A DNA stretch of 64,000 nt from Haematobia irritans. Lineage: Eukaryota; Arthropoda; Insecta; Diptera; Muscidae. Every line of letters starts with the position of its first letter. Position 1 is the first letter of the stretch. Below, in pieces: positions 11,017-64,000 of this stretch. The position numbers were made by a program, and so were the translations under genes. The stretch spans positions 62,992,241 through 63,056,240 of the forward strand of contig NC_134400.1 of assembly GCF_050003625.1 (NCBI RefSeq), written 5' to 3'. Under the pieces are notes generated by a model. It searched no databases. It saw only the letters and a program-made list of their open reading frames with translations, and was not told where the DNA came from.

Positions 11017-11574
11017 TATATAAAAATATTGTGTTTAAAAATTTGAGTTCCAAACATATAATTTTTACACCCAAGCATATGAAAAACAGTCTTTTTCGTC
11101 CGTGTAGAGAGTAGTCCACTGTAATTATTTTATTTTGGCCAAATAGGCTTAGAATTACATGCTCTGAATGAATAAATAAAATAAAATAAGCTTTGAGTTT
11201 TTGAAAAGATTGTGAACATATTTTCCCACGGAAAATAGACAACCAGAGATGGTCTGTATCAAACTTTTTTAGGTTTGCGACTGTCGCAAAGTTGTAAACG
11301 TCAAATACGCGTCGTAAATGTAGAAAAAGTAGCAAACGTCAGTCCCTTCAGCTAGGAAGCGAATGATCTTAACTCCCAATACTTTTGTTCGTGGACGTTT
11401 TGCTGGATTCTATGATGTATAGACGGAAATGCAATAAATCTAAATAAAATCCCTTTCAATATAAACTATAAATAATTTGTTTAATCAATTTTCATGCAAA
11501 GTTTTATGAGCTATACGAAATTAATTATATTTGTTTAGTTTGGCTTGAGGTCATGTAAATAAAAACAGATGTTG
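11017..11574. other. No recognised feature
   Basis: AT-rich DNA between the BEL and Penelope-like elements. A 107-codon open frame on the minus strand (11012-11335) has no motif or homology that I recognise and is not supported as a gene. Confidence 0.4.
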
Positions 11575-11683
11575 TTGTTTTATTGAGTTGTAATTTTTTT
11601 TATTTGAAAATATCCAATATTTCGAGACATCTCCGATGCTCGTCTTCAGGGAAATTACTTTAAACAAAAAGAAAAAACATTTA

Positions 11684-11901
11684 CGGCCATTTTCATGTAG
11701 CTCCGTTAGGCTTTAACTGCCAGTTAACAGAAAGTAAATTGCAATTATCTTCTCTCCGGATAACTTTAACTGAAAAATTTTCATCAGTTAAGTTTCTAAC
11801 TGGCCTATGGAATATAAAGGCAAGATGACAGCTTCTTCCATAATACGGTTTAAAAGTTGGTTAGTTAACGGAACACTAACGGAGCTTTATGAAAATGGGG
11901 G
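11684..11901. mobile_element. Short MITE with TTA flanks (PIF/Harbinger-like)
   Basis: Imperfect inverted ends contain CCATTTTCAT and AGCTCCGTTAG on the left and their complements on the right. TTA is present on both sides (11681-11683, 11902-11904). The 218-bp element lies in the 3' region of the Penelope-like element and has no coding capacity. Confidence 0.6.
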
Positions 11902-12013
11902 TTAACACATTAATTAACAAAATATATATCAATACTTGAAAAACACGGATAATTACATTTAAATTGAAAAAACAGTGAACTTGTTCAGAAGAGAGTATAT
12001 TTACAACTAAAAG

Positions 12014-13111
12014 CTAATTCGTCTTTCTATATTTTTGTACAATATTTCTATAAATATGTGCACAATGGTCCGTATCAGTCTTAAAATTCATCCGTCTTTC
12101 TGCAGGTACATTTATAATATGTAGCATCTCCAGTGTAAATCTCCTTTTATAGTTGTTTTCTTGCGTCAAAATATATACGTCCTTAAGGTGTCCTGTTAAA
12201 GTGCAATGTGCTGCAAGTGCCGTCTTTTGCTCCAAGGGCTTATCAGTGTCTTTCTGATCAGATTTATACCCTGAGAGTCTAGTTTTTAATTTGGTTCTCG
12301 TTGTACCAACATATACTTTTTGGCAAGTATCCGAATCATTTCCATTGCATTTGATCTTATATACTACGTTTGACTTGTCTTCTTTCTTAATTTTGGATTT
12401 TGTCTTGCTGAAGAATTGATTTACTATATTATAAGTCCTTTGTGCAATTTGAAATTTGTCCTTATTAAACATGTTTGATGATTTGAATCTTTCCGAAAGT
12501 TGGGTGACATATGTCAAGGGTTTATAAATTTTGGGTTCAATTTCGTCATTTTTGATTTGTTGTCTTTCTTTTACATGTTGAATTAAGTCGTCAATCGTTT
12601 TATTCGGGAAATCATTTAATCGCAGTATAGTCCTTATCTTATCCTCGTTGTCCTTATGGAATATTTTGTCGCTAATACCGTGTACTCTTCTTATAAAATT
12701 TGTAGCCGTATTCATTATAATTCGTCTAGGATGTTTGGAGTTGAAATTTATCAATCGTCCTGTGGCTGTTGGCTTTTGATACCAGTTGATTTTTATTCTA
12801 TTTTTGTGCCTTAGAATTATAGTATCTAAGTATGGTAACTTGTTGTCCTCTTCTGTTTGCATCGTAAATTGACTTTGTCTATCAAAGGCGTTTAAAGCTA
12901 ATAACGTAGCCTGAACGTCATTTTTATTCAAAATACAAAACAGATCGCCTACATATTTTGTCATTATTTTTGTTTTATAGTCAATTTTTCCATCACTGAG
13001 TCTAAGAGTACTTCCATTACAATGTGATGGAAGCTGCTGATCCCATCGGTGAAGCTGCTGATCCCATCGGCATTCATTTACGTTGTTCTTACACCTTGTC
13101 ATCATACACAA
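12014..13111 (-). pseudogene. Penelope-like RT C-terminus and GIY-YIG endonuclease
   Basis: A 365-codon frame. The RT palm segment near its start reads YVGDLF, where YVDD-type motifs are normal, so a catalytic aspartate is replaced by glycine. The central part contains LPYLDT and NWYQKPTATGR, typical of this family. The endonuclease lies in the last third: VYKIKC followed by KVYVGTT correspond to the GIY and YIG parts, with the downstream basic residues. It would nick target DNA to prime reverse transcription. The first codons include an in-frame 21-bp duplication (13030-13071) near the frame start. The frame is separated from the rest of RT by a frame change near 13100. Confidence 0.82.
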
Positions 13112-13395
13112 AATATCTTGAGTCCTTGATACAAAAAGTTAACATTTCTATGAAAACATCCATCGGTATCTTTGTGTAGTCTTTTATTTCGTCCCATTTT
13201 TCTTTTATAATCTTTATCGCCAAATTTACTGGAATGCTTGGAAAAAGAGATATTACGTCGAACGAAATCATTGTTTTATTGTCCTCAATCTTAATGTTGC
13301 TGGTTTTATTCTTAAATTCAATTGCGTCATTTACATTATATTTGGAATCTTTTGTCAAGTTTTTCAAAATATTCACAATATATTTTGATAGTTCA
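13112..13395 (-). pseudogene. Penelope-like RT, middle part
   Basis: This frame carries SFDVISLFPSIPV, the motif A region of Penelope RT. Its first ~10 codons come from the gypsy LTR, not from the Penelope-like element. True Penelope sequence begins at 13395 and continues upstream at 18343. It ends at a frame change near 13089-13111. Confidence 0.8.
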
Positions 13396-13754
13396 TGTTG
13401 TGGATGGCATCCCTGCCACACAGAAAGTACATACCATTATTTTATCCGTCTACTTTAATCTACATCTGTAATTATGTTTCTGCTCTTTTCTTCATATACA
13501 TACACATATCATGTTGATATTGCTTATATAGATCATCGATATATGTAATGCCGTTATTATTAGTATATGTGTGTGTTCTTTTGCGATGAATATAAATTGT
13601 CATAACTATAAGCTAAGAACATTCTAAGTTTGGCGTTGATTTAAATTAGAAGTGACTCTCGTGTAACTCCCGTAATTGTACAAATAATTAAATAAAATTG
13701 TTATTCCTTATATTGTGAATTTATGTGTCTCACTTGGAAGCAAGGGACACAACA
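13396..13754 (+). repeat. 5' LTR of gypsy B
   Basis: It is 359 bp and carries TG...CA ends. A candidate primer-binding site, TGGCGACGAGGATTAAAAG, starts one base after the LTR at 13756; I did not assign the tRNA. Confidence 0.92.
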
Positions 13755-13829
13755 GTGGCGACGAGGATTAAAAGTGAATAGTTTGAAAAAAGACAACGCT
13801 TTTGATTAATATTTTGAACTGTAAACAAA

Positions 13830-15146
13830 ATGGAGCAAACGTTGCAAACAATTTTTGAGCAACAAGCCAAATTAATGGAAAAGTTGGTGGCAGCAACAGT
13901 TGGAAATAGAAACGCACTGGAAGCTTCAACAAACAGTCAAAATTCAAATGAGGGTGTTATGGAAATGTTGTCAAAGTGCATTAAAAAATTTGTATACAAT
14001 CCGGAGGCAAACCAAACATTCGAGACGTGGTATGCTCGTTATGATCACTTATTTGGCGAAGATGCAAATAAGCTTTCTGACTCTGAAAAAGTGAAATTGG
14101 TGTTGCGGAAATTAGAACCTGATGCTTTTGACAAATATGCTGATTATTTGCTACCAAAACTGCCCCGCGAGTTAAATTTTGATACAAAAGTGTCAACGCT
14201 AAAAACACTGTTTGGGAGAAAAGAGTCACTTTTCAGTGCACGGGTTGCATGTCTGCAGGTTACCAAGACAACACAAATGGATTTCATCACATATGGCGCC
14301 ATGGTAAATCGGAATTGTGATAATTTCGAATTCGGCAAATTAAAAGAAAATCAATTTAAATGTTTGATGTTTCTGAGAGGTCTTCAAGCCCCAGAAGATG
14401 GCGATGTCAGAGCTCGGGACACTGATGGAACGTATACAATTGACAAAATGGTGTCTGAGGTGAACCGTATGATCAGCTTGAGGAATGATGCCGCCGTGGT
14501 GGAACAAAGTGTGATCCACGCAATCAAACACAATCACAAATTTGCCAAAGGGAAACAACAAAGCAGCCCTGTTCCAAGTGAAAAACCGCGAAGGCCATGT
14601 TGGCAGTGTGGTGAGATGCACTTTGCACGAAATTGTAGCTACACAAAACACTTGTGTGAACAGTGTGGCATCGTGGGTCACAAAAAAGGCTACTGCTCTT
14701 GTTTTGCCTCGACATCAAAGCACCGAAGCGACAATAAAAACAAGAAGAAGCAGTACAACAGAGCCCGAGCTAGTATAGCCGCAGTGAACTATGTCGCTGC
14801 AAACAGGAAGTACGTAAACGTCAAAATTAATGGTATAAAGCAGCGCCTACAGTTCGACACAGGTGCAGATATCACAATAATTTCACGTCAGATGTGGTTC
14901 CAAATAAAAAGACCAACCCTATCAAAAGCAACCCATTTAGCTCGAGACGCGTCAAATCATGTACTCAACCTAATGGGCCAATGTCAGGTACAGGTTGAAT
15001 TCAAAGGCAAGTCAATTTCAGCGACAATTTTTGTAACACCGAACAGCAAGTTGAACGTTATGGGCACGGACTTAATGGATAAATTTGGAACATGCCTATT
15101 GATTCAATCTGTAACAACATTACTAGCTCAGAAATTGAAGATATGA
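13830..15146 (+). CDS. gag: Gypsy B Gag-protease
   Basis: An intact 438-codon frame from ATG 13830. The N-terminal ~100 residues have a Gln/Glu-rich start, followed by a capsid-like region. Two zinc knuckles follow: CWQCGEMHFARNC, which has one residue fewer than the usual spacing, and CEQCGIVGHKKGYC, which fits CX2CX4HX4C. The retropepsin follows in the same frame with QFDTGADITIIS, which keeps Asp-Thr-Gly. The RT frame overlaps its end in the -1 frame (about 15083-15146), as in many gypsy elements. An AAATTTG string at 15081 lies in the overlap but is out of the canonical slippery register. Gag would form the particle and the protease would cut the polyproteins. Confidence 0.88.
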   Translation: MEQTLQTIFEQQAKLMEKLVAATVGNRNALEASTNSQNSNEGVMEMLSKCIKKFVYNPEANQTFETWYARYDHLFGEDANKLSDSEKVKLVLRKLEPDAFDKYADYLLPKLPRELNFDTKVSTLKTLFGRKESLFSARVACLQVTKTTQMDFITYGAMVNRNCDNFEFGKLKENQFKCLMFLRGLQAPEDGDVRARDTDGTYTIDKMVSEVNRMISLRNDAAVVEQSVIHAIKHNHKFAKGKQQSSPVPSEKPRRPCWQCGEMHFARNCSYTKHLCEQCGIVGHKKGYCSCFASTSKHRSDNKNKKKQYNRARASIAAVNYVAANRKYVNVKINGIKQRLQFDTGADITIISRQMWFQIKRPTLSKATHLARDASNHVLNLMGQCQVQVEFKGKSISATIFVTPNSKLNVMGTDLMDKFGTCLLIQSVTTLLAQKLKI

Positions 15147-15888
15147 AGAACAAATACCCTTCGTTATTTTCATCACTGCCGGGACATTGTTCAACATTCA
15201 TGGTGCATTTGAAAATAAAAGAAAACGCACAACTAGTTTTCAGACCCAAACGACCCGTTGCTTATGCCGCGTTACAACAAGTAGACGAAGAATTGCAACG
15301 ATTGGAGAAGGCAAATATCATCACACCTGTAAATTACTCCAGATGGGCAGCACCTATTGTAGTGGTAAGAAGAGCCAACGGTAAAGTACGCATTTGTGGA
15401 GACTATTCCACCGGGATGAACGAGTGTATGGAAAATCATGCCTACCCATTACCATTGCCGGATGACATTTTTGTAAATTTTAATAACTGCAAGTACTTTA
15501 CCCAAATTGATTTAACCGATGCTTACATGCAAATGGAAGTTGATGATGCCACTAAACAGATTCTCACGATCAACACCCACCGAGGTCTGTACACATTCAA
15601 CCCACTTGCGCCGGGTATCAAATCAGCACCTTAGCATTCCAGCAAGCAATTGACACAATCTTATCAGGTGTTATATTTGCTCATCCATATTTAGATGACG
15701 TCATCATAGCAACGCCATCTAAAGAGGAAAATCAAAATGCAGTTCATGAAGTTTTTCAACGGTTTCAAAGGTATAATCTCTCAATAAATATTAACAAATG
15801 TACTTTTTTCTCTCGTAGCTGCACCTATCTGGGATACAAGGTCGATGGCAATGGAATTCGTCCAGATCCAACAAAAATTTCAGCCATT
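15092..15888 (+). pseudogene. pol: Gypsy B reverse transcriptase, broken
   Basis: The first frame (15092-15634) has the RT entry segment, then TQIDLTDAY (motif A aspartate) and GIKSAP. It stops at 15632-15634. The sequence then continues in another frame with the motif C region YLDD (~15690) and the downstream LGYKVDG connection to RNase H. A single small frameshift near 15612-15634 therefore interrupts RT. The -1 relation to gag suggests expression by ribosomal frameshift when intact. Confidence 0.85.
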
Positions 15889-16831
15889 TTGGATATGCCA
15901 GCTCCATCAAACGTGTCAGAGCTCCGATCTTTCCTGGGTGCAGTAAATTACTATGGGAAATTTATACGCAAAATGCGTAACCTTCGAGCGCCTTTGGACA
16001 ATTTGTTGAAGGAGAATCAAGAATGGGAATGGTGTAAAGCTTGCGAGGATTCTTTTATAGCATTCAAAAACATCTTAGGATCCAAACTCATGCTGACTCA
16101 CTATGACCCCAGATTGCCAATAAAAGTGGCTGTGGATGCATCAAATGTGGGCATTGGTGCCTACATTTGCCATGTTTACCCAGATGGATCCGAGAAGGCT
16201 ATATATCATGTGTCACGTGCATTGACAACAGCTGAACGGAATTATTCTCAAATAGAGAAAGAGGGTTTGGCGCTAGTCTTCGCGGTATGCAGATTTCATA
16301 AAATGCTGTATGGTCGACGTTTCAGGCTCGAAACCGACCATAAACCATTGTTAGCGATTTTTGGCAGTAAAAAGGGAATAGCCACTCATACAGCAAGTCG
16401 ACTACAACGCTGGGCGTTAACATTGATGTCATACGACTTTGAGCTGAGTTATATCCCAACGCAGAAATTTGGTTGCGCTGATATTCTGTCAAGGCTAGTT
16501 AACAAGAATCAAAAACCCGATGAAGATGTTATAATTGCTTGTGCCCAAATTGAAAATGAGATCAAGTATATTGTTCAAGACAACATCTCAGCGTTGCCCA
16601 TCACCCACAATATGATCCGTTCAGCAACACACAACGCGCAACTTTACAGAATATCATCCACTTTTTGGGAACTTCGTGGCCCGTCAAAAAGTCTCCTGAA
16701 GAGGTTGCTTTTTCAAAGACGTGGTTGTCTTTCCGTCCGTGATGGTTGTATTTTATACCAAAATAGAATGGTCATTCCCAAAACTTTGCGTCAACGCGTA
16801 TTAAAACAACTCCACAAGGGACATCAAGGCA
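15889..16831 (+). pseudogene. pol: Gypsy B RNase H and integrase zinc region
   Basis: This open frame is continuous with the RT end and covers the RT thumb (LRSFLGAVNYY) and RNase H (KVAVDASNVGIGA, then Glu in YSQIEKEGLAL and Asp in ETDHKPL). It continues to the integrase N-terminal region, with HKGHQG near 16815. The next domain is in another frame from about 16832, so another frameshift follows. Confidence 0.83.
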
Positions 16832-17831
16832 TTGTTTCTTACAAAATCATTAGTACGAAGCTATGTGTACTGGCCAAATGTAGACAAAGACATAGAGGAC
16901 CTCATCCAACGATGCGATATTTGTGCCTCAGTAGCAAAATCACCACCACGGACGACCCTGCAATCGTGGCCCATTGCACAGAGGCCAATGCAACGTATTC
17001 ACGTCGATTTCGCTGGTCCAGTAAATCAAGCAACGTATTTTTTGATAGACTCAATGAAGTCAATGACGTCAGCAGCAACAATTGATTGTCTATATGATTA
17101 TTGCTCGAAGTTTGGTTTTCCAGAAACATTGGTGAGTGACAATGGTACACAATTTACCTCACAAGAGTTTGTTCTATTTTGTAGAGAAAATGGAATCGAG
17201 CACATTCGTACCGCCCCTTTCCACCCGCAATCAAATGGTTAGGTTGAACGTTTTGTTGACACGTTCAAACGCGCTTTGAGAAAACAGCGAAACGGCGTCA
17301 ACACCATACGGGAATTTCTTCTGTTCTACAGAGCGACTGAAAATAACAACACTATTGAAGGTAAATCGCCATCAGAACTTTTCTTGGGGAGGAAAGTTAG
17401 AACAAACTTGGACTTGCTTTTCAAGCCAAAATCAAGCCAAAAATGTGCACTACCGCAATAAAAATATGGAAATCCAGTATAACCGAAGGTTCAATGCAAA
17501 GCCGAGGATTTTTGAGATCGGTGCAGAAGTTTATGTTAAGGTGTATAAACAAAATAAATATTTCTGGACGCCTGGAGTAATAAAGAAAAAAATTGGGAAG
17601 GTTAACTACGAAGTTGACGTTAAAGTATTTCCATATTTTAAGTCCATGAAATCGCAAACAAATCAACTTCGGTTGCGGCATTGCGACTCTAAAACAAAAA
17701 TGGAAACAAATATTACATCGTGGCTGAATATGTTTGACATATGCCCACCGAACCGTAAGGCCTATCAGTCGTGTGAAGAAATCTCAGAATCTATACCATC
17801 AAATGTGCCAGACGGAATAACAGTGGAATAA
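16832..17831 (+). pseudogene. pol: Gypsy B integrase, broken
   Basis: The frame to 17242 holds the zinc-binding CDICAS, the core start HVDFAGPV and SDNGTQF. About ten residues normally found between the first catalytic Asp and the following strand are missing, an apparent deletion. A TAG at 17240-17242 lies just before the VERF segment that carries the catalytic Glu. The same frame continues to about 17460, then a further frame (17355-17831) holds the C-terminal region. Integrase cannot be made whole. Confidence 0.83.
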
Positions 17832-17978
17832 CCGGTGATTGCTACAGAAGATACAAAATCACCTACACAACCATCAACGAGCTGGGAAGCCGATCAATTA
17901 TCTTCTTCATTGAGGCGATCCAGTCGTCCTCGACGTATGCCACAACGATTCCACGACTACATATCTTAAAAGGGGAGA

Positions 17979-18337
17979 TGTTGTGGATGGCATCCCTGCC
18001 ACACAGAAATTACATACCATTATTTTATCCGTCTACTTTAATCTACATCTGTAATTATGTTTCTGCTCTTTTCTTCATATACATACACATATCATGTTGA
18101 TATTGCTTATATAGATCATCGATATATGTAATGCCGTTATTATTAGTATATGTGTGTGTTCTTTTGCGATGAATATAAATTGTCATAACTATAAGCTAAG
18201 AACATTCTAAGTTTGGCGTTGATTTAAATTAGAAGTGACTCTCGTGTAACTCCCGTAATTGTACAAATAATTAAATAAAATTGTTATTCCTTATATTGTG
18301 AATTTATGTGTCTCACTTGGAAGCAAGGGACACAACA
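17979..18337 (+). repeat. 3' LTR of gypsy B
   Basis: It is 359 bp, preceded by the polypurine tract AAAAGGGGAGA. It differs from the 5' LTR at one position that I could see. The non-coding interval 17832-17978 precedes it. Confidence 0.92.
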
Positions 18338-18342
18338 GTTCA

Positions 18343-18545
18343 TAAGAGGGGGAATTTATTGAAGAACATATCGGTCTTACAGGGACTCCTTCCTTATGAA
18401 TCTTCGGAAGTCCATAAATTCGTGGGGCGTTAGCAGTTTTACGTATTACTTTAAATTTCTCGTTGGTCTCAATGACATAACATTCATCCTTATTAGTACG
18501 GTCTACATAATTTAATGTTTCATTTATTTACGAATGCTGTATTTA
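18343..18545 (-). pseudogene. Penelope-like RT, N-terminal part (beyond gypsy B)
   Basis: The minus strand encodes the RT finger region with APRIYGLPKIHK and VPVRP, characteristic of Penelope-like elements. It is directly continuous with 13395 once gypsy B is removed. The element's upstream end is lost near 18545. Confidence 0.82.
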
Positions 18546-18846: not shown

Positions 18847-18989
18847 GATTTTTCTGAAAATGGGTGGTTTTGCCAAATTTATGCGCATAAGAAATAAACA
18901 TATGTTTTCTTTCCAGTTTGCGGGAAAATTTGTAATATTTTGATTTTATTTATCTACAATACGTTTTATTTATATAAAAATCATATTTA
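18847..18989. repeat. Direct repeat flanking mariner (left copy)
   Basis: About 143 bp, strongly similar to 20790-20935. The two copies lie on either side of the mariner at 18990-20358. Both end at the same CATATTTA position. The similarity does not extend through the mariner's right flank. Confidence 0.75.
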
Positions 18990-19029: not shown

Positions 19030-20292
19030 GCAACAGTAAAAAATTGGCTTGCTGAATTTAAACGTGGTCGTACAAGCATTGAAGATGAATCACGTAGTGG
19101 ACGTCCAAAAACAGCAACAACAACAGAAATTATAGCCAAGGTTAGGTTAGGTTAGGTGGCAGCCCGATGTATCAGGCTCACTTAGACTATTCAGTCCATT
19201 GTGATACCACATTGGTGAACTTCTCTCTTATCACTGAGTGCTGCCCGATTCCATGTTAAGCTCAATGACAAGGGACCTCCTTTTTATTAGCCGAGTCCGA
19301 ACGGCGTTCCACATTGCAGTGAAACCACTTAGAGAAGCTTTGAAACCCTCAGAAATGTCACCAGCATTACTGAGGTGGGATAATCCACCGCTGAAAAACT
19401 TTTTGGTGTTCGGTCGAAGCAGGAATCGAACCCACGACCTTGTGTATGCAAGGCGGGCATACTAACCATTGCACCACGGTGGCTCCCAATTATAGCCAAA
19501 GTGCATGATATGATATTAAATGATCGAAGAATAAAAGTGCGTGAAATTGCTAATATCATGGGCATCTCAAATGATCAAGTCCATTTAATTTTGCATGAAG
19601 AACTACAGATGAAAAAGCTTTCTGCAAGATGGGTGCTGCATTTGTTAACAGTCAGTCAAAAACGCATAAGAATGAACAAGCTTGAGATTGTTTGGATCGT
19701 TTTAAGCGAAATAAAATGGATTTTAAGCGTCGTTTCATAACTATTGATGAGACATGGGTCCACCACTATAAACCACACCACTACAAAAGAACAATCCAAG
19801 CAATGGACTGAAGCTGGAGGAAGTGCCCCAAAGAAGGCAAAAAGAATTCAATCGGCTGGTAAGGTCATGGCAACGGTTTTTTGGGACTTCAAAGGTATTT
19901 TATTGATTGACTATCTGCAAAAGGGTAAAACAATAAATTCAGAGTACTAATGCAACCTTTTGGATCAATTAAATGTACAAATTCAAGAAAAACGTCCTGG
20001 CTTACAACACAAAAAAATAATAATTTTTCATCAAGACTACGCACCAGCGTAGTACGAGTTGCTTGACCACCCACCTTGTTCTCCTGATTTAGCTCCCAGT
20101 GACTTTTACTTGTTCCCAAATCTAAAAAAAATCCTTGCTGGCAAGCGTTTTACCTCAAATGAAGATGCAATTACAGTTGTAAACCACTATTTTGAAGACT
20201 TTGAGGAAAACTATTTTAATCAAGGAATAGAACTGCTAGAAAAGCGTTGGACTAAGTGTATTGAAGTTTCAGGAGATTATATTGAAAAATAA
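19030..20292 (+). pseudogene. Mariner transposase, fragmented
   Basis: The helix-turn-helix part (WLAEFKRGRTSIEDE, SGRPKTATT) precedes the SINE. The frame resumes at ~19500 with REIANIMGIS, then frameshifts near 19740. The first catalytic Asp region (TIDE-type) is at ~19740, and HQDYAPA (~20030) marks the second. PCSPDLAPSDFYLF (~20075-20115) carries the third catalytic residue, in the DD34D arrangement of mariners. It ends at TAA 20290-20292. At least three breaks make it dead. Confidence 0.8.
19140..19487 (-). mobile_element. tRNA-derived SINE, copy 1
   Basis: Read on the minus strand, it starts with a tRNA-like head containing TGGTGCAATGGTTAG (A-box-like) and GGTTCGATTCC (B-box-like). It ends with AACCTAACCTAACC. 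The 348-bp copy is flanked by the exact 12-bp duplication AATTATAGCCAA (19128-19139, 19488-19499) and lies in the mariner transposase. It would be transcribed by RNA polymerase III from the internal boxes. Its last ~70 bp match the LINE tails in this window. Confidence 0.9.
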
Positions 20293-20789: not shown

Positions 20790-20935
20790 GATTTTTCTGA
20801 AAATGGGTGGTTGTTCTCGCCAAATTTATGCACATAAGAAACAAAATATGTTTTCTTTCCAATTTGCAGGAAAATGGGTAATATTTTGATTTTATTTATA
20901 TACAATACTTTTTATTTATATAAAAATCATATTTA
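20790..20935. repeat. Direct repeat flanking mariner (right copy)
   Basis: This copy matches 18847-18989. On the minus strand it lies directly after the stop codon of the candidate exon at 20933-21025 and contains two AATAAA signals. Confidence 0.75.
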
Positions 20936-21183: not shown

Positions 21184-21334
21184 CTGAAAGGAAAAAATAT
21201 GGATTTACTATTCTAAAAAGAAGGATTTGTTTGATATCAAATAATGTCTACATCTTACACTGAAAAAAATATTTACGTGATATTCGTTTTGTTTTGTTAT
21301 TGTGGGTTTCTTTCTTTAATCATTGTTGTTGTTT

Positions 21335-21595
21335 TTGATTTGAGCTTCAAACCATGCATTGACTAAACTACAAGTGTAGCTTAACCAACAGAGGAAAAGA
21401 ATGTTTGTCAAATTTATCTACTTGCTGCAAGTAGAGGATGCTGATGAGGAATGTGGTAATTCCGAAACGTGCGTCCATCCAACCATCTTGCAGTCTATAA
21501 GGCTTTGCCCAAATAAATTTGACAAACATTATTTTCCTCTGTTGGTTATGCTACACTTGTAGTTTAGTCAATGCATGGTTTTAAGCTGAAATCAA
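21335..21595 (+). mobile_element. Fold-back element with hammerhead ribozyme at its apex
   Basis: Inverted arms of ~80 bp (21335-21416 and 21512-21595) share CAATGCATGGTTT-type ends, CTACAAGTGTAGC and CAACAGAGGAAAA on opposite strands. The ~95-bp centre contains a complete hammerhead motif. No protein is encoded. The ribozyme type with a two-base-pair stem III is known from terminal repeats of Penelope-like elements, so this may derive from one, but that is inference. Confidence 0.8.
21425..21493 (+). ncRNA. Hammerhead self-cleaving ribozyme (type I, short stem III)
   Basis: All core parts are present in order: stem I strand GGATG (21436-21440), CTGATGA (21441-21447), stem II GGAAT/ATTCC with loop GTGGTA (21448-21463), GAAA (21464-21467), a two-pair stem III with loop GTGC, cleavage triplet GTC (21473-21475) and stem I strand CATCC (21476-21480). 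Stem I is extended past an internal loop by CTGCAAG (21425-21431) pairing with CTTGCAG (21487-21493). Cleavage is predicted after C21475. Confidence 0.88.
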
Positions 21596-22186
21596 TTAAA
21601 TATTTCATTTCCAGTAAATATTGAAAATATTAAGGATGGAATAATTTATTTTCATTGATTGACTTTTTCCTTTTTTTATATAAATATATTGAACTGTACC
21701 ACTTCTTTACAACTTGTCGCTCAGATTTCAAAATTCAAATGATGATAGGCCTATGGAAATCGCAACACTAAGCTTAAATTGACGTGTGTAAAGAATAAAA
21801 AAAACGGTACAAAGGGGGGAAAACCAAAAAATCGATATGATCAAGTGTAAGTATGTTAGCCTTGTGAGAAATATTGAGTATGCCTACAGAGAGTACATTA
21901 GGCCATCAACATACTCTCATACATAACTATAGCCGAAAACATAGAAAAATCTCCCCATGAAGAGAAGGTTACCCATAGACCAAATATTACAACTTGAATC
22001 ATTTTTTTTTCTTTTCTTTATCAATCAATAAAATAAAAATATAGAAAGAATCGTAACAAACCTGCTTTGTTCTTAGTTACAAAATAACTAATGACGAAAA
22101 GGAAGATTCTAGGACCTCATGACCATCTTAATTTCCATTGTAACCATTTTGGTTTCCAAAAGTGTGACCCACAAAGCCGGGCAATA
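21596..22186. other. No recognised feature
   Basis: AT-rich DNA between the fold-back element and a gypsy integrase fragment. Several short homopolymer runs are present, but no supported coding or repeat feature. Confidence 0.4.
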
Positions 22187-47416: not shown

Positions 47417-47524
47417 GTAAGTATTGTATTGTATAATATTGTATTCTTTTTAAAGTACTTTTGTTTTTAATAATTTGTTTTAATCATTTTTAGTTTGGAA
47501 AATGACTATTATACATTGATATAT

Positions 47525-47875
47525 GGGAGCAACCGTCGTACAATTGTTCATACCCGCTGTGCAGACAAACGGTTATGGATTCAATCCTAGTTTCGACCAA
47601 ACACCATAAAGTTTTGCAACGGTGGATTGGTGGATTACTCCCTCTGTAATGCTGGTGACCTTTCTGAGTGTTTCAAAGGCACTCTAAAATTTTCATCGCA
47701 ATGGGAAATGATGTTCAGGCTCGGCTATAAAAAGGAGATTCCTTGTCTTTGAGCTTCCTGCACGGAATCGGGTGGCACTCAGTGACAAGAAAGAAGTTCA
47801 ACACTGCTGTATCATAATGGACTAAATAGTCAAAGGGAACCTGAAATAACGGGCTGCCACTATAACTAACCTAAA
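47525..47875 (+). mobile_element. tRNA-derived SINE, old diverged copy
   Basis: The tRNA-like head is degraded, but ACCAAACACCATAAAGTTTT, CTGGTGACC and the TGGACTAAATAGTC tail are recognisable along its length against 59245-59598. The tail is down to AACTAACCTAAA. It is clearly older than the other two copies. Confidence 0.8.
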
Positions 47876-47915
47876 CTGTACCCGAATCTATCATAATTGG
47901 AAAAGTTCACCTTAA

Positions 47916-59244: not shown

Positions 59245-59598
59245 GAGAGCCACCGTGGTGCAATGGATAGCATGTCCGCCTTGCATACACAAGGTTGTGG
59301 GGTCGATTCCTGCTTTGACCGAACACCAAAAAGTTTTTCAGCGGTGGATTATCCCACCTCTGTAATGCTGGTGACATTTCTGAGGGTTTCAAAACTTCTC
59401 TAAGTGGTTTCACTGCAATGTGGAACGCCGTTCGGACTCGGCAAAAAAAAAACAAGGTCCCTTGTCATTGAACTTAACATGGAATCGGGCAGCACTCAGT
59501 GATAAGAGAGAAGTTCACCAATGTGGTATCACAATGGACTGAATAGTCCAAGTGAGCCTGATACATCGGACTGCAACCTAACCTAACCTAACCTAACC
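59245..59598 (+). mobile_element. tRNA-derived SINE, copy 2
   Basis: The tRNA-like head starts GAGAGCCACCGTGGTGCAATGG, with a B-box-like GGTCGATTCC. The body matches copy 1, and the tail is AACCTAACCTAACCTAACC. It is flanked by the exact 14-bp duplication TATAACAAGATCAA (59231-59244, 59599-59612). Confidence 0.92.
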
Positions 59599-59612
59599 TA
59601 TAACAAGATCAA

Positions 59613-61680: not shown

Positions 61681-62154
61681 AAACAAGTATATACGGCCGT
61701 AAGTTCGGCCAGGCCGAAGCTTATGTACCCTCCATCATGGATTGCGTAGAAACTTCATCTAAACACTGCCATCCACAATCGAATTACTTAAGTTGCGGTA
61801 ACGCTTGCCAGTAAATTGTATGTAAGTCCATACGTGGTATATATTAAATCAAAAAAGATCGATCCAATACGTATATAATTCAGTTTGACAAAGTAGACAT
61901 AAAATTTTGACAAAATTTTCTACAGAAATAAAATTTTAACAAAATTTTCTATAGAAATAAAATTTTCACAAAATTTTCTATAGAAATAAAAATTTTGACA
62001 AAATTTTCTATAGAAAGAAAATTTTGACAAAAATTTCTACGGAAATAAAATTTTAACAAAATTTTCTATAGAAACAAACTTTTGACAAAATTTTCTATAG
62101 AAATAAAATCTTGGTAGATTATTTTTGGCTCGAGTGGCAACCATGATTATGAAC
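61681..62154 (+). mobile_element. Left part of a MITE with GTTCGGCC ends, holding a short tandem array
   Basis: The left end AACAAGTATATACGGCC ... AAGTTCGGCC is matched inverted by GGCCGAACTTAG ... TATACTTGTTTT at ~62465-62502. From ~61885 the interior becomes an array of about 28-35-bp units built on TTTTGACAAAATTTTCTATAGAAATAAAA. The array is broken by hAT H1 copy 2 and resumes at 63823. Confidence 0.62.
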
Positions 62155-63822: not shown

Positions 63823-64000
63823 CGAATAATATTTGAACAAAATTTTCTATAGAAATAAAATTTTGACAATGATGAAAATTTTATTATGAACCGAATAAAA
63901 TTTTAAAAAATTTTCTCTAGAAATAAAATTTTGACAAAATTTTCTATAGAAATAAAATTTTGGTAGATTATTTTTGGCTCTAGTGGCAACCATGATTATG
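63823..64000 (+). repeat. Short tandem array, continuation
   Basis: TTTTGACAAAATTTTCTATAGAAATAAAA-type units continue to the window end, closing with GGCAACCATGATTATG, the same phrase that precedes hAT copy 2 at 62137-62150. Confidence 0.75.

Follow-up and report, generated by a model that had tools for sequence, protein, structure and literature searches.

The 64,000-nt stretch of Haematobia irritans DNA analysed here (the window) carries a small hammerhead ribozyme held at the tip of a long hairpin. That the ribozyme is part of a high-copy, protein-less, retrozyme-like repeat is well supported. As judged from sequence comparison among copies, we consider it probable that this retrozyme was inserted by reverse transcription of the type used by Penelope-like elements (PLEs), begun on both target strands, with the fold-back arising as a by-product. 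Two-ended insertion of this type fits the copies best because of their ends, their orientation and their tails. On this view, the ribozyme-tipped hairpin would be a scar left by insertion from both ends and not a fold-back transposon. The features discussed below are collected in Table 1.

Table 1. Positions in the window of the ribozyme, the insertion that contains it and the neighbouring PLE
Feature	Position	Strand	Basis
Type I hammerhead ribozyme with extended stem I	21425..21493	+	Helix-requiring pattern search and base-by-base reading
Predicted cleavage site, after C at 21475	21475..21476	+	Sequence
Whole composite insertion, two unit segments head-to-head, 3' ends outward	21282..21595	.	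Match to the 441-bp unit of L087
Left-segment tail (unit 442-481), A+C-rich on the minus strand	21282..21321	-	Boundary from ungapped 136-nt match
Left arm: unit 346-441, from the 3' part, in inverted orientation	21322..21417	-	Match to unit
CTAC at the inversion junction, putative snap-back copy	21418..21421	.	Palindrome with following bases
Tailless right segment: unit 255-428, comprising the ribozyme and the 3' part	21422..21595	+	Match to unit
Possible target-site duplication AAATATTT, left; 7 nt (ACGTGAT) before the element	21267..21274	.	Sequence
Possible target-site duplication AAATATTT, right; 2 nt (TT) from the element	21598..21605	.	Sequence
PLE remnant with the end of the RT gene and a hammerhead-like CTGAAGA...CGAAATATT (near 11649-11615); its 3' end, at 11521, is tailless	11521..13417	-	Sequence and relatives
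RT-like piece, seemingly of the same PLE, limits approximate	18340..18540	-	Translation; assigned by reading
LTR element, 339-bp LTRs 99.7% alike, apparently inside the PLE RT gene	13418-18339		LTR pair

On the evidence of its bases, the motif between the two 83-nt inverted arms is confirmed as a complete type I hammerhead and not a product of chance. Every part lies where the first-pass annotation had described it: stem I is formed by GGATG (21436-21440) and CATCC (21476-21480), CTGATGA occupies 21441-21447 and GAAA 21464-21467, stem II pairs GGAAT with ATTCC around GTGGTA, and CGTGCG at 21468-21473 is followed by TC at 21474-21475. Beyond an internal loop (TAGA/AACCAT), stem I is extended by 7 bp, CTGCAAG/CTTGCAG. 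The motif has the core CUGANGA ... GAAA ... UH together with three helices and is open at stem I, which defines type I. The sequence provides this internal loop and a loop II of 6 nt, between which loop-loop tertiary contacts might form.

The bare core string is cheap, with 0.35 matches expected per shuffled window and at least one match in 31 of 100 shuffles. With three helices required, there is one match in the window versus none in 200 Markov shuffles (25.6 million strand-bases), and the shuffles likewise stayed free of matches at a looser helix setting. No second ribozyme was found in the window, even with helix III optional. Among viral contigs, 63 stretches have the core string and in none of the 63 are stems I and II both at least 3 bp long. 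Rfam at gathering scores gave no match over the whole window, and a search of 341 nt that allowed E values as high as 10 recovered no hammerhead. The covariance check proposed in the first-pass annotation did recover Hammerhead_1 (RF00163, a model without the extended stem I) when 95 nt were searched, but at 16.1 bits (E 0.13), below the gathering cut-off of 34. The same annotation had named drift of core bases in other copies as a warning sign, and little of it is seen: in 58 ribozyme-spanning copies picked by likeness to the window copy, 8 of 696 cells at the 12 core sites are changed, with no change common to three or more copies. In the 3' arm of these copies the corresponding figure is 223 of 5658, and 12 of 102 sites have a change common to at least three copies. 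The helix III loop is the most variable part (21/348), stem II having 4/580 changes, and the stretch 5' of the ribozyme (16/885) is as steady as the ribozyme domain (83/3985). Because the sample was picked by likeness to the window copy, the conservation of the core should be read only as a weak sign of selection.

The inverted arms, put at about 80 bp in the first-pass annotation, are indeed 83 nt long (21335-21417 and 21513-21595) and 95% complementary, with 95 nt between them and four mismatches, at 21342, 21348, 21381 and 21399. Folded as RNA, the 261 nt reach -145.9 kcal/mol (z -19.7), and none of 200 shuffles is equally good. The lack of protein-coding capacity also holds, no ORF of 90 aa being listed within 21282-21595. 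A 21-mer of the arm has no match in viral contigs. A microRNA precursor was considered and rejected: MIR6457 scores 60.7 bits, far under its cut-off of 140, and does so on both strands, as for any long hairpin.

The feature is larger than first described, since inverted homology to the repeat family extends left to 21282. Relative to the unit of locus L087, 21282-21417 is 91.9% identical in inverted orientation and 21422-21595 is 96.6% identical in direct orientation; the left segment runs from unit 481 to 346 inverted and is tailed. At the junction, CTAC and the next bases make up the palindrome CTACTTG-CTG-CAAGTAG. No exact target duplication of at least 6 bp lies close to the arms as first given, and the 8-bp duplication appears only with the true left limit at 21282. 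Because it is short and AT-rich, AAATATTT is only a possible target duplication, a chance match being conceivable. A second copy with the window junction is absent among 40 scored matches of 794 candidates, which is suggestive only.

These candidates come from a genome search of Haematobia irritans with the 261-bp element, in which 40 matches were scored and 86 matching pieces listed. Three of the 40 cover all 261 bp, namely the window copy and two others at 85-86% (L067 and L089), and the other 37 begin only at query position 79-91, that is, they consist of the ribozyme and the right arm. All 40 were fetched, representing 39 loci (L064, L067, L072-L108). At L087, ribozymes at 1840, 2281 and 2722 follow each other head to tail with a spacing of 441 bp, and the units are identical to one another and to an adjoining 303-bp inverted piece. 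We used a real copy from this locus as the yardstick unit, rotated so that ribozyme C3 is at 274, the cut falls after 308 and the A+C-rich zone is at the ends. The 441-bp unit is without a gene (the longest M-to-stop frame in the tripled unit is 73 aa) and has a GC content of 36.7%. As a circle it folds at -121.0 kcal/mol with 65% of bases paired, which corresponds to a z of -6.3 relative to 60 shuffles that preserve mononucleotide composition; the ribozyme is formed and the 3' arm pairs with a diverged left arm, giving a rod weaker than the fold-back hairpin. A milder form of the hairpin is therefore built into each such unit. The earlier idea that the arms present the ribozyme on a hairpin stands, but such presentation is not peculiar to the arms, as the normal unit also folds with the ribozyme formed.

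Joining pieces up to 80 bp apart, we obtained 53 insertions from the 39 loci. Both strands are present in 16 of them and in all 16 the minus piece precedes the plus piece, so that the two are head-to-head, with 5' ends together and 3' ends outward. Of the 69 3' ends, 62 fall in unit 423-488 and are either tailless or carry a tail of about 40 nt, 32 lying at 423-454 and 30 at 460-488; the remaining seven are at unit 50 (just past the tail), 120, 150, 269, 289, 315 and 398. The 423-488 zone is the stretch of the unit richest in A+C: its A+C content is 83%, that of the unit 50%, and just 3 of 441 windows of this kind reach such a level. The 3' end of the inverted partner provides a fair test, because the search favoured copies reaching unit 428, and it lies inside the zone in 12 of the 16 inverted copies. 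Ten inverted copies have one tailed and one tailless end, one has both tailless, one has both tailed and four have an end elsewhere. Since the zone was set after inspection of the ends, the copies were picked for likeness to the window copy and some are mutual duplicates (L076, L084), P-values for these distributions are rough.

The 5' ends are scattered, with recurrences at unit position 255, where the extended stem I has its outer limit. Several copies begin there, among them L082, L097 and the one in the window, which would fit frequent halting or folding back of reverse transcription at this point. The 16 inverted copies have 16 different junctions, and it therefore looks as though the fold-back is made anew each time. 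The palindrome CTACTTGCTGCAAGTAG occurs at three of the 16 junctions (window, L087 and L091). Its continuations differ among the three, which would fit a cDNA end folding back on itself. Exact target duplications outside simple repeat are 13 bp long at L086, 12 bp around the inverted copy of L087 and 8 bp at L082. There is no target duplication in 16 of the 53 insertions, and most of the others lie within a 29-bp repeat so rich in A+T that matches come easily. This tandem repeat (of the AAATTTTGACAAAATTTTCTATAGAAATA kind) is present at 61894-62113 and 63894-63962 of the window and in the flanks of many loci. Many ribozyme repeats, and many PLE copies too, lie next to it, and it may be a favoured target.

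An abundant PLE occurs beside the ribozyme repeat in the same genome. The window PLE, whose parts at 13417 and below and at 18340 and above seem to be separated by the LTR element, has its best relative (81% identical) in Haematobia irritans itself and many relatives in flies. A search with 11500-12600 returned 4463 PLE candidates, of which 40 were scored; the hammerhead-like CTGAAGA...CGAAATATT is found in other PLE copies displayed as well. Leaving out rows that ended before probe position 180, we could compare 31 PLE 3' ends from 31 loci (L110-L140): 16 have a 31-nt tail ending AAACAAC(A..) and 15 are tailless. PLE sites with both strands (L110/L112, L120, L129) are head-to-head, L129 with one tail. 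In the copies displayed, the tailless end of the ribozyme repeat is AAAAACAACAACAA or near it, similar to AAACAAC of the PLE; in this resemblance the tailed end of the PLE matches the tailless end of the repeat and not its tail. No sequence kinship was found between the unit and the window PLE, the four short matches lying outside the unit as far as seen. In its insertion anatomy the repeat agrees with PLEs (optional tail, head-to-head inversion and short target duplication, the last being only a possible one in the window copy). Because the unit lacks a gene for reverse transcriptase plus GIY-YIG endonuclease, the repeat is not itself a PLE; it appears to work like a PLE passenger. We propose the window PLE as the kind of helper, separate from the ribozyme repeat. 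The 3' region of this PLE also contains a 218-bp insert (11684-11901) absent from the other PLE copies matched, and the ends of the insert resemble inverted repeats (CCCATTTTCATAAAGCTC / GGAGCTACATGAAAATGG).

Based on these observations, the fold-back might have arisen as follows. By analogy with retrozymes, the ribozyme would cleave transcripts of several units into monomers, which are perhaps circularised. A Penelope-type enzyme would then begin to reverse-transcribe the RNA at an internal point, within the A+C-rich zone that lies 3' to the ribozyme; use of two start places about 40 nt apart would give the tailless and tailed 3' ends whose positions we observed. Both strands of an AT-rich target, once cut, would serve as primers, and the two cDNAs, growing toward each other, would be joined into the head-to-head arrangement found in the copies. 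In the window, the right cDNA would have passed the ribozyme, turned back on itself at the short palindrome that immediately precedes the ribozyme on its 5' side, and thereby gained CTAC; the left cDNA holds the tail and the arm only.

Several properties of PLEs support such a scheme. As reported in the available text of PMC11167929, purified PAc, a PLE enzyme, cuts the two strands of its target and extends them both; its start site, in an AC-rich stem loop, is internal and does not differ between the strands. Inverted pLTRs, 8-10-bp duplications, palindromic junctions, a head-to-head arrangement as the most frequent one and an optional tail of 31 bp, carried by one pLTR of an inverted pair, are among the PLE traits given in the part of PMC3846280 available. 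Against it, the same portion of PMC11167929 describes hammerhead cleavage as dispensable in vitro and RNA ends at the cut site as not seen. It is tempting to speculate further, though we would stop somewhat short of calling it probable, that the retrozyme rides the Penelope reverse transcriptase by mimicking the layout of PLE RNA (ribozyme, then an A+C-rich internal start zone), the fold-backs recording two-strand priming, sometimes round a circular template. A circular template is suggested for some copies because the three units and the inverted piece of L087 are without a single difference. If this is true, transcribed fold-back insertions would yield long hairpins with a tip able to cut itself.

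Other explanations have to be weighed against two-strand priming. The same retrozyme and PLE-type machinery could have produced the inversions by snap-back self-priming of one cDNA or on an antisense template; self-priming on antisense RNA is how the authors of PMC3846280, in its available text, prefer to explain head-to-head copies, arguing from palindromic junctions. The three palindromic junctions agree with this, but 13 of the 16 are without such a palindrome, and self-priming at one end has no need for the far end of the inverted partner to lie in the A+C-rich start zone, as it does in 12 of 16. We regard self-priming as an unlikely explanation. Still less likely is movement of the repeat by a LINE, with ordinary twin priming as the source of the inversions. 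A LINE would also be compatible with the scatter of 5' ends and with the 8-13-bp target duplications, and LINE-like genes were recognised by reading in the window. In twin priming, the outer end of the inverted piece is at an internal site, whereas 12 of 16 such ends here are at the 3' start zone; moreover, a choice between two 3' ends is characteristic of PLEs.

A ribozyme-tipped, MITE-like fold-back element moving as a 260-bp unit, as the first-pass annotation had it, now seems highly improbable in spite of the strong arms and of L067 and L089, which are fold-backs similar over the full length. The continuous left arm is missing from 37 of 40 scored matches, the junctions of L067 and L089 differ, as do those of the inverted copies in general, and the outer ends of the window copy differ by a tail, unlike terminal inverted repeats. 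Neither terminal inverted repeats conserved in most copies nor one common structure was found. As to a mere chance look-alike of a hammerhead in a hairpin, the sub-threshold Rfam score and the cheap core string speak for it; set against the empty shuffles with helices required and the steadiness of the core relative to the 3' arm in the likeness-picked copies, it is scarcely credible.

As described in the available text of PMC7229834, metazoan non-LTR retrozymes resemble the repeat: they have a type I hammerhead with a 2-bp helix III and a tetraloop and consist of protein-less tandem units of 150-450 bp with GC below 50% and highly self-paired RNA. L087 has tandem units in this size range, each with one type I hammerhead, whereas the window copy is not tandem; the unit shares the absence of a protein gene, the low GC content and a self-paired RNA in which the ribozyme is able to form. 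The tie to retrozymes and PLEs that the first-pass annotation had drawn for a short-helix-III type I hammerhead, here in a fly, is supported. Unlike the retrozymes covered in that text, many copies of the horn-fly repeat stand singly, are truncated at the 5' end or form head-to-head pairs in which a tail is optional. By title and abstract, we found no account of head-to-head or tailed retrozymes in literature that mostly excludes subscription papers. With PLEs bearing pLTRs, the repeat shares the optional tail, head-to-head inversion, palindromic junctions and short target duplications (PMC3846280, in part), as well as an A+C-rich start zone 3' of the hammerhead (PMC3846280 and PMC11167929, both in part). 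It differs from PLEs in having no RT-endonuclease gene and no detected sequence kinship, and in a ribozyme with helix III and an extended stem I, PLE ribozymes being minimal according to the same portions of these two sources. Dipteran hammerheads, including those of Musca domestica, are similar in occurring in fly genomes and in having a 5-bp stem I, an internal loop and a further helix; however, those in the available part of PMC7936874 are type III, open at helix III, whereas the present one is type I, open at stem I. Type I hammerheads are also known from the Smalpha SINE-like repeat of schistosomes and from newt and cave-cricket satellites, likened here by description (in part from PMC6155905 and PMC2808323).

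PLEs have been regarded as likely or strong candidate movers of retrozymes from common hammerheads and co-occurrence (available text of PMC7229834 and PMC7761336). With hundreds of candidate copies available in a single genome, insertion ends, tails and inversions can directly test which enzyme moves animal retrozymes, and they provide copy-level evidence on how ribozyme repeats may spread. They also call for caution, as a striking ribozyme-in-hairpin can be an insertion scar.

Other repeats are present in the window as well. The one at 19139-19495 lies inside a mariner-like element with AATTATAGCCAA on both sides and has related copies at 59247-59603 and 47524-47877. It reads like a tRNA-derived SINE, an assignment we rejected as ARAGORN finds no tRNA in it. 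The mariner-like element is bracketed by direct repeats at 18847-18989 and 20790-20935, which are 90% alike.
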